Assembly: GCA_021204175.1 (NCBI GenBank)
Contig: JAJPZT010000072.1
Coordinates: 1-39,315, forward strand
Direction: 5' to 3'
DNA length: 39,315 nt
Origin: Clostridiales bacterium
GTDB lineage: Bacteria > Bacillota > Clostridia > Lachnospirales > CAG-274
Of this stretch, positions 24,294 to 24,751 are shown one piece after another. The stretch's first letter is position 1. Each line of letters opens with the position of its first letter. The position numbers and the translations under genes were made by a program. Under the pieces are notes generated by a model. The model saw only the letters and a list, made by a program, of their open reading frames with translations. It made no database searches and had not been told where the DNA came from.

Positions 24294-24713
24294 TGTCGTT
24301 TCAAAAAAATGTTCCGTTTTTGCGAAATGTTTCATTTAATGGTCAGTGAAACGTTGCTGCATTAAATGCCGATAGGTTGGTTTATTCACAATCCGATTAA
24401 CAAATCTGATTTTAATTTTTAGCAACAGTTCAGCCGTGGCTTTTATTTTCAGATTTTCGCATATTTATATGCGTAAAATATGAAAATAAGACACGAGCGG
24501 AGCGCCAAATAATGAGTAAAGGGAGAACCCGAAAGACATCGGGACATCTACTGAAAAAATTCAGTAGATGGGTTTTGCGTTAAGCAAAACTTCTGAACAA
24601 GCCGCAAAGCGGCGAAGTATGCGAATGGAATCCGAAAGATGTCGGACAGCGAAGCTGCTTTTCCGTAAGGAAAAGTTCTGAGCAGACCTTTTACGAATTA
24701 TTTGGCTGAACTG
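24294..24713 (+). repeat. Hairpin-rich insertion-like element between atpB and atpE
   Basis: No protein is encoded. The outermost part, CATTTAATG and CATTAAATG (about 24333-24367), is a 9-bp hairpin. A 288-bp segment is bounded by a 10-bp inverted repeat (CAGTTCAGCC 24426-24435, GGCTGAACTG 24704-24713). Inside are a long AT-rich hairpin (24436-24494) and two related modules. Module one: CCCGA/TCGGG (24528-24543), an 11-bp stem with AAAA loop (24545-24570), a 7-bp stem (24572-24590) and GCCGC-AAA-GCGGC (24601-24613). Module two: TCCGA/TCGGA (24631-24646), CAGC-GAA-GCTG (24647-24657) and a 7-bp stem with GTAA loop (24658-24675). Stems differ in sequence but keep pairing between modules, pointing to conserved structure. 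Confidence 0.65.
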
Positions 24714-24751
24714 TAAAAATTTTTATTATTATTTTAAGGAGGCAATTTATT

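Follow-up and report, generated by a model that had tools for sequence, protein, structure and literature searches.

In the window, a stretch of 39,315 nucleotides from a Clostridiales bacterium (contig JAJPZT010000072.1), the genes of the F-ATPase operon follow each other closely, with 50 bp between atpE and atpF, an overlap of atpF and atpH and further spacings of 17, 12, 6 and 14 bp, whereas atpB and atpE are kept apart by exactly 458 bp (24294-24751; atpB ends at 24293 and atpE begins at 24752). This raises the question of what fills the gap and whether it serves the operon. The original prediction, made from the DNA letters and their reading frames, saw in it either a selected RNA structure for uneven expression of the operon or a MITE-like insertion, and described both the gap and the tight packing elsewhere correctly. 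The gap strand folds more stably than shuffled sequences (-151.3 versus -102.6 +/- 5.6 kcal/mol, z = -8.7). The inverted repeat proposed to bound a structured segment is present, but it is perfect over 11 bp instead of 10 (ACAGTTCAGCC, 24425-24435; GGCTGAACTGT, 24704-24714) and its outer ends span 290 bp instead of 288. The two internal modules, composed of CCGAAAGA..TCGG, a variable stem, a TTTTGC/GCAAAA or TTTTCC/GGAAAA stem and TTCTGA, correspond to direct repeats D1 and D2, and their stems indeed vary in sequence while the pairing is maintained. What this first description lacked were the true ends (24422-24717) with their 8-bp duplications, the recognition of the modules as a dispersed repeat, and the presence of an older 120-bp spacer.

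The comparison with related genomes, one of the checks proposed at the time, showed the gap to be a recent insertion of a small parasitic element, further called element A, and not a conserved control signal. In two congeners (G001 and G006) the atpB-atpE gap measures 160 and 158 bp and contains the same spacer without element A: it aligns to the spacer of the window up to ...CTGATTTT, continues with AATCTTTATTATTTTAAGGAGG, and presents an uninterrupted target AATCTTTA where the window reads AATTTTTA-element-AATTTTTA. This empty site in two congeners identifies 24422-24717 as a lineage-specific insertion. The gap is 56 bp in a third congener and 21-84 bp in most other relatives, and element A is absent from it in all relatives examined, close congeners included. 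In the lineage of the window, element A thus entered a spacer that was already there and duplicated its 8-bp target AATTTTTA. An assembly chimera, which could have produced the same picture, is countered by the matching 8-bp duplications and by the occurrence of the same composite element at a locus of another species (L186). The spacer at 24294-24413 is itself ~100 bp longer than that of G005, and only G001 and G006 have it in common with the window. In two relatives of the same order (G025:C8 and G030:C136; L096, L098, L108, L109, L111) three tandem atpE genes are found, not one. All features of the locus are listed in Table 1.

Table 1. Coordinates of the features in and around the atpB-atpE gap, in positions of the window
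Feature	Position	Strand	Evidence
atpB (F-ATPase subunit a), upstream neighbour	23610..24293	+	ORF; tblastn against relatives
Pre-existing spacer, outside the insertion, common to G001 and G006	24294..24413	.	gap comparison
Target-site duplication, left copy AATTTTTA	24414..24421	.	identical to 24718-24725 over all 8 bp; empty site
Element A, MITE, 296 bp here, other copies typically ~153-166 bp	24422..24717	+	15 further full-length copies
Left terminal inverted repeat GCAACAGTTCAGCC	24422..24435	+	
Long subterminal hairpin of A, GTGGC..GACAC	24436..24494	+	15-copy consensus fold, compensatory changes
Inner stem of A, left arm GCCAAATAATGAGTAAAGGG	24504..24523	+	inverted repeat I1; consensus fold
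Module B1 in A, 74 nt	24523..24596	+	covariance model R1, 71.7 bits, E 4.1e-15; A copies without B1
Module B2 in A, 56 nt	24626..24681	+	covariance model R1, 72.8 bits, E 2.1e-15
Inner stem of A, right arm CCTTTTACGAATTATTTGGC	24687..24706	+	inverted repeat I1; consensus fold
Right terminal inverted repeat GGCTGAACTGTAAA	24704..24717	+	
Target-site duplication, right copy AATTTTTA	24718..24725	.	matches left copy; empty site
atpE ribosome-binding site AAGGAGG, intact after insertion	24737..24743	+	sequence; same in relatives
atpE (F-ATPase subunit c), downstream neighbour	24752..25072	+	ORF; homologues in 26/31 genomes

Used as a query against the own genome, the gap sequence returned 53 matches, and full-length element A was found at 15 other loci with the same ends in inverted orientation, which, together with the empty site and the target duplication, bears out the MITE-like half of the original prediction. 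The ends have the general form G(T/C)AACAGTTCAGCC ... GGCTGAACTGT(T/A)A(C), with 11-bp perfect and 14-bp near-perfect terminal inverted repeats in full copies; the right end of the window copy reads TGTAAA, not TGTTAC. A perfect 8-bp target-site duplication flanks the window copy and five others, two more copies match at 7 of the 8 positions, and in many copies the duplications are imperfect. As the 16 full copies (that of the window included) measure only ~150-296 bp, none of them has room for a transposase gene.

Which transposase moved element A was approached through its ends. IS66 elements make 8-bp target duplications and possess GTAA-type ends with the consensus GTAAGCG (PMC11946415). 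Element A shares the 8-bp duplication and its ends begin with GTAA or GCAA, followed by CAG where the IS66 consensus has GCG. Moreover, the congener G003 carries a degenerate IS66 transposase with five stops (L127, 1700-1924), and ~120 bp past the domain match lies GGCTGAACTGTTAC, identical to the end of element A over 14 bp. Since such a match so near an IS66 relic is very unlikely to arise by chance, mobilisation of A in trans by an IS66-type transposase is the most likely explanation, in which the enzyme would act on the GYAACAGTTCAGCC ends of A. Our confidence in this assignment is moderate, because GTAAGCG is the IS66 consensus and the searches revealed no intact partner: near the relic in G003 neither a left end nor an intact element was found, the own draft genome yielded no IS66 domain and no intact IS66 element, and a search of it for an autonomous partner returned only unpaired or short-range ends. 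In inverted ends starting with GYAA, 8-bp duplications, the lack of an ORF and a high copy number, and in the identical 14-mer borne by the relic of the genus, element A resembles the IS66-family MITEs, from which it differs in ending with GTAACAG where GTAAGCG is described and in residing in a genome in which no intact partner was found. Several transposase families, for example IS256 and ISL3, generate 8-bp duplications. Another DDE family of this kind might accordingly have moved A, and the own assembly without an IS66 gene as well as the IS256-type transposase gene of a congener (L174) fit such a mover; against the GTAA end and the exact 14-bp end located 3' of the IS66 relic in G003, however, we judge it improbable.

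The window copy of element A is long because two modules, B1 and B2, are nested inside it. B1 consists of a closing stem, a hairpin with an AAGA loop, a variable hairpin, a TTTTGC/GCAAAA hairpin and TTCTGA, and B2 has the same layout with a TTTTCC/GGAAAA hairpin. Both occupy fixed sites in A; the B2 site is filled in L178, L182 and L186, and further A copies have it empty. Elsewhere, at different loci and in different species, we found A alone, A+B1, A+B2 and A+B1+B2+B2, and A+B1+B2 at L186 in another species. This varying B content of A suggests that A travels with B as cargo. The architecture, in which the window copy of A holds, at two fixed sites, two copies of a palindromic module that is also dispersed independently, is observed directly, and the joint movement follows from it by inference. 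In many B copies (L182, L186, L043 and L060) the variable stem contains a further hairpin (e.g. ACCTTGAATTTTTC...GAAAAAATCAAGGCA), a third nesting level. Several B copies (L052, L059, L159, L160 and L175) adjoin a repeated CCTCCCC/GGGGAGG palindrome CCCTCAAGGGGAGG, which looks like a further element dispersed through these genomes. A comparable composite is known from Streptococcus pneumoniae, where BOX elements are organised as boxA-boxB(n)-boxC, carry TIR ends and target duplications and are thought to be parasitic (PMC3049150). Compared by their architecture, as described there, A+B and BOX share fixed ends and an interior whose module count varies (0, 1, 2 or 3 B here); unlike in BOX, B also spreads widely on its own and occupies two fixed sites in A, not only a tandem block.

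To map module B on its own, a covariance model (R1) was built from nine copies. It detected 49 copies in the own genome and B in 24 of the 41 genomes searched, with up to ~50 copies per genome; several members of one Clostridiales family contain ~45-50 copies each, and a genome of another family of the same order (G035) contains 45. Over 94 distinct copies, B comprises a 3-4-bp closing stem, the conserved AAGA-loop hairpin, a freely variable hairpin, a third hairpin that is usually TTTTGC/GCAAAA, and a CTGA end. Between species individual sites are either filled or empty (L053 versus L196, L055 versus L185), with no target duplication visible, and B copies showed no orientation bias relative to the flanking genes. 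Targeting of hairpin loops by B found no support, as insertion points were spanned by 5.0 pairs and control points by 4.6. A scan of sequence collections with one strict pattern retrieved three genome contigs, all from Clostridiales/Eubacterium MAGs, and no viral contigs, and blastn of the element matched no plasmids or phages. Rfam gave no gathering-level match in the window, at gathering as well as lenient thresholds, the best scores being at chance level and far below the cut-off. B is a previously undescribed dispersed palindromic mobile module.

The covariance analysis of the modules that had been called for showed very strong covariation of the B stems, with 370 double changes compared to 99 in shuffles and far lower numbers in slid controls. 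Functional RNA is expected to pass through G-U pairs, DNA palindromes are not. The three hairpins of B contain 9 G-U pairs out of 1467 (0.6%), whereas ten tRNAs located at these loci contain 15 out of 217 (6.9%), a contrast that is to be taken as indicative since pairs are not independent. Strong covariation with almost no G-U points to DNA palindromes and not to selected RNA; of the properties of a selected RNA, B displays covariation, but hardly any G-U intermediates and no fixed orientation. The stems are best explained as near-perfect Watson-Crick palindromes that would be kept at the DNA level and not through RNA function. They would be preserved because spread requires a hairpin in single-stranded DNA or a cruciform, and/or because template switching repairs palindromes; template switching in replication can keep hairpins perfect (PMC8794818). 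Alternatively, the G-U deficit could reflect the use of both strands as RNA. That B would be a regulatory or structured non-coding RNA of the host, dispersed by chance with A and not itself mobile, is suggested by its cloverleaf-like layout, by the conservation of the AAGA loop and of CTGA at the 3' end and by covariation far above shuffles, but there is little chance of this given the presence/absence polymorphism between species, the tandem and nested copies, the copies that interrupt genes for a recombinase and for an IS256 transposase, the lack of an orientation bias and the lack of an Rfam match.

Being short, palindromic, dispersed and intergenic, and sometimes arranged in tandem or opposed pairs, B also recalls the REP/BIME repeats that are moved by a Y1 (RAYT, TnpA-REP) transposase. 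Yet no Y1 transposase was found in G000, G001, G002, G005, G006, G017 and G023, which carry 27-50 B copies each, and in G010 ten Y1 matches go together with a single B. The distribution of B hence does not track that of Y1 transposases, B is not an ordinary REP, and a REP/BIME-type repeat moved by such an enzyme is a very unlikely identity for it; unlike REP/BIME, B has three hairpins and a closing stem and no link to a Y1 transposase. Tentatively, and with more doubt than conviction, B might represent a new kind of mobile element, i.e. a 55-95-nt unit of three hairpins and a closing stem, made of strictly Watson-Crick palindromes, that would insert precisely, leave no target duplication, nest in other repeats and be moved by a non-RAYT, non-TIR mover recognising folded single-stranded DNA.

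Returning to the operon, an RNA element under selection in the atp mRNA, which as a processing site, an attenuator or a stabiliser would make expression of the c subunit uneven, would agree with the strong fold (z -8.7), the covarying stems, the position upstream of atpE and one terminator-like hairpin on the sense strand (24545-24570), be it with a poor T tract. We give this reading very little credence, because the insertion is absent from every relative's gap examined, close congeners included, its sequences recur at many other places in the genome, copies show no orientation bias and nearly no G-U pairs, and a promoter search of the gap returned promoter-like matches no more often than in shuffles. 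The regulatory half of the original prediction is therefore unsupported: relatives have the gap without the insertion, B occurs in both orientations and its G-U content is 0.6%. Nevertheless, co-transcribed MITEs can change mRNA processing (PMC3049150), from which a side effect of the insertion on atpE expression is possible; any such effect through a folded leader would be a by-product of the insertion.

B is present inside genes as well. Three serine-recombinase genes, one from the own genome and two from G001, are interrupted by B at one or two exact sites, and excision of the exact B unit restores the reading frame. These sites lie between SIDR and xGRN and between ERVN and xKQR (L055, 1222-1315 and 1502-1565; L185; L215). 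The B copies are not read through in frame, as the frame is shifted by units of 94 and 64 nt and a unit of 63 nt contains an in-frame TGA, and intact B-free paralogues exist. In G004, an IS256-type transposase gene contains a sense B (L174, 279-339) whose exact excision restores the frame (DVPQDRKS followed by SFEPKI); in the own genome, an antisense B (L064, 1501-1559) breaks a RhuM-like ORF of ~400 codons. In G001 (contig C95), a further recombinase gene is in two halves with an element A match between them. Removal of B from the mRNA, or its bypass, was considered because excision restores the frame and recombinase exons have a dN/dS of 0.05-0.08, but is not claimed and seems most improbable, since the B units are nearly identical although the gene copies differ at dS 0.46-1.1, so that the insertions may be recent or repeated, and since one copy is antisense in the RhuM-like ORF and A itself sits between recombinase halves. 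Rickettsia palindromic elements and in-gene bacterial MITEs likewise are mobile palindromes found between and inside genes (PMC2229807), as B is; unlike them, B is not read through in frame in the recombinase copies.

Taken together, we consider it highly probable that the gap holds a MITE, element A, inserted in an older spacer, probably mobilised by an IS66-type transposase and carrying nested B modules whose palindromes are kept at the DNA level. For the interpretation of such structures, this means that covariation alone is not proof of a functional RNA, as it can arise from DNA palindromes, for example by template switching (PMC8794818). In the core operon studied here, the puzzling gap that looked 'regulatory' becomes a transposon insertion for which both a filled and an empty site are seen.
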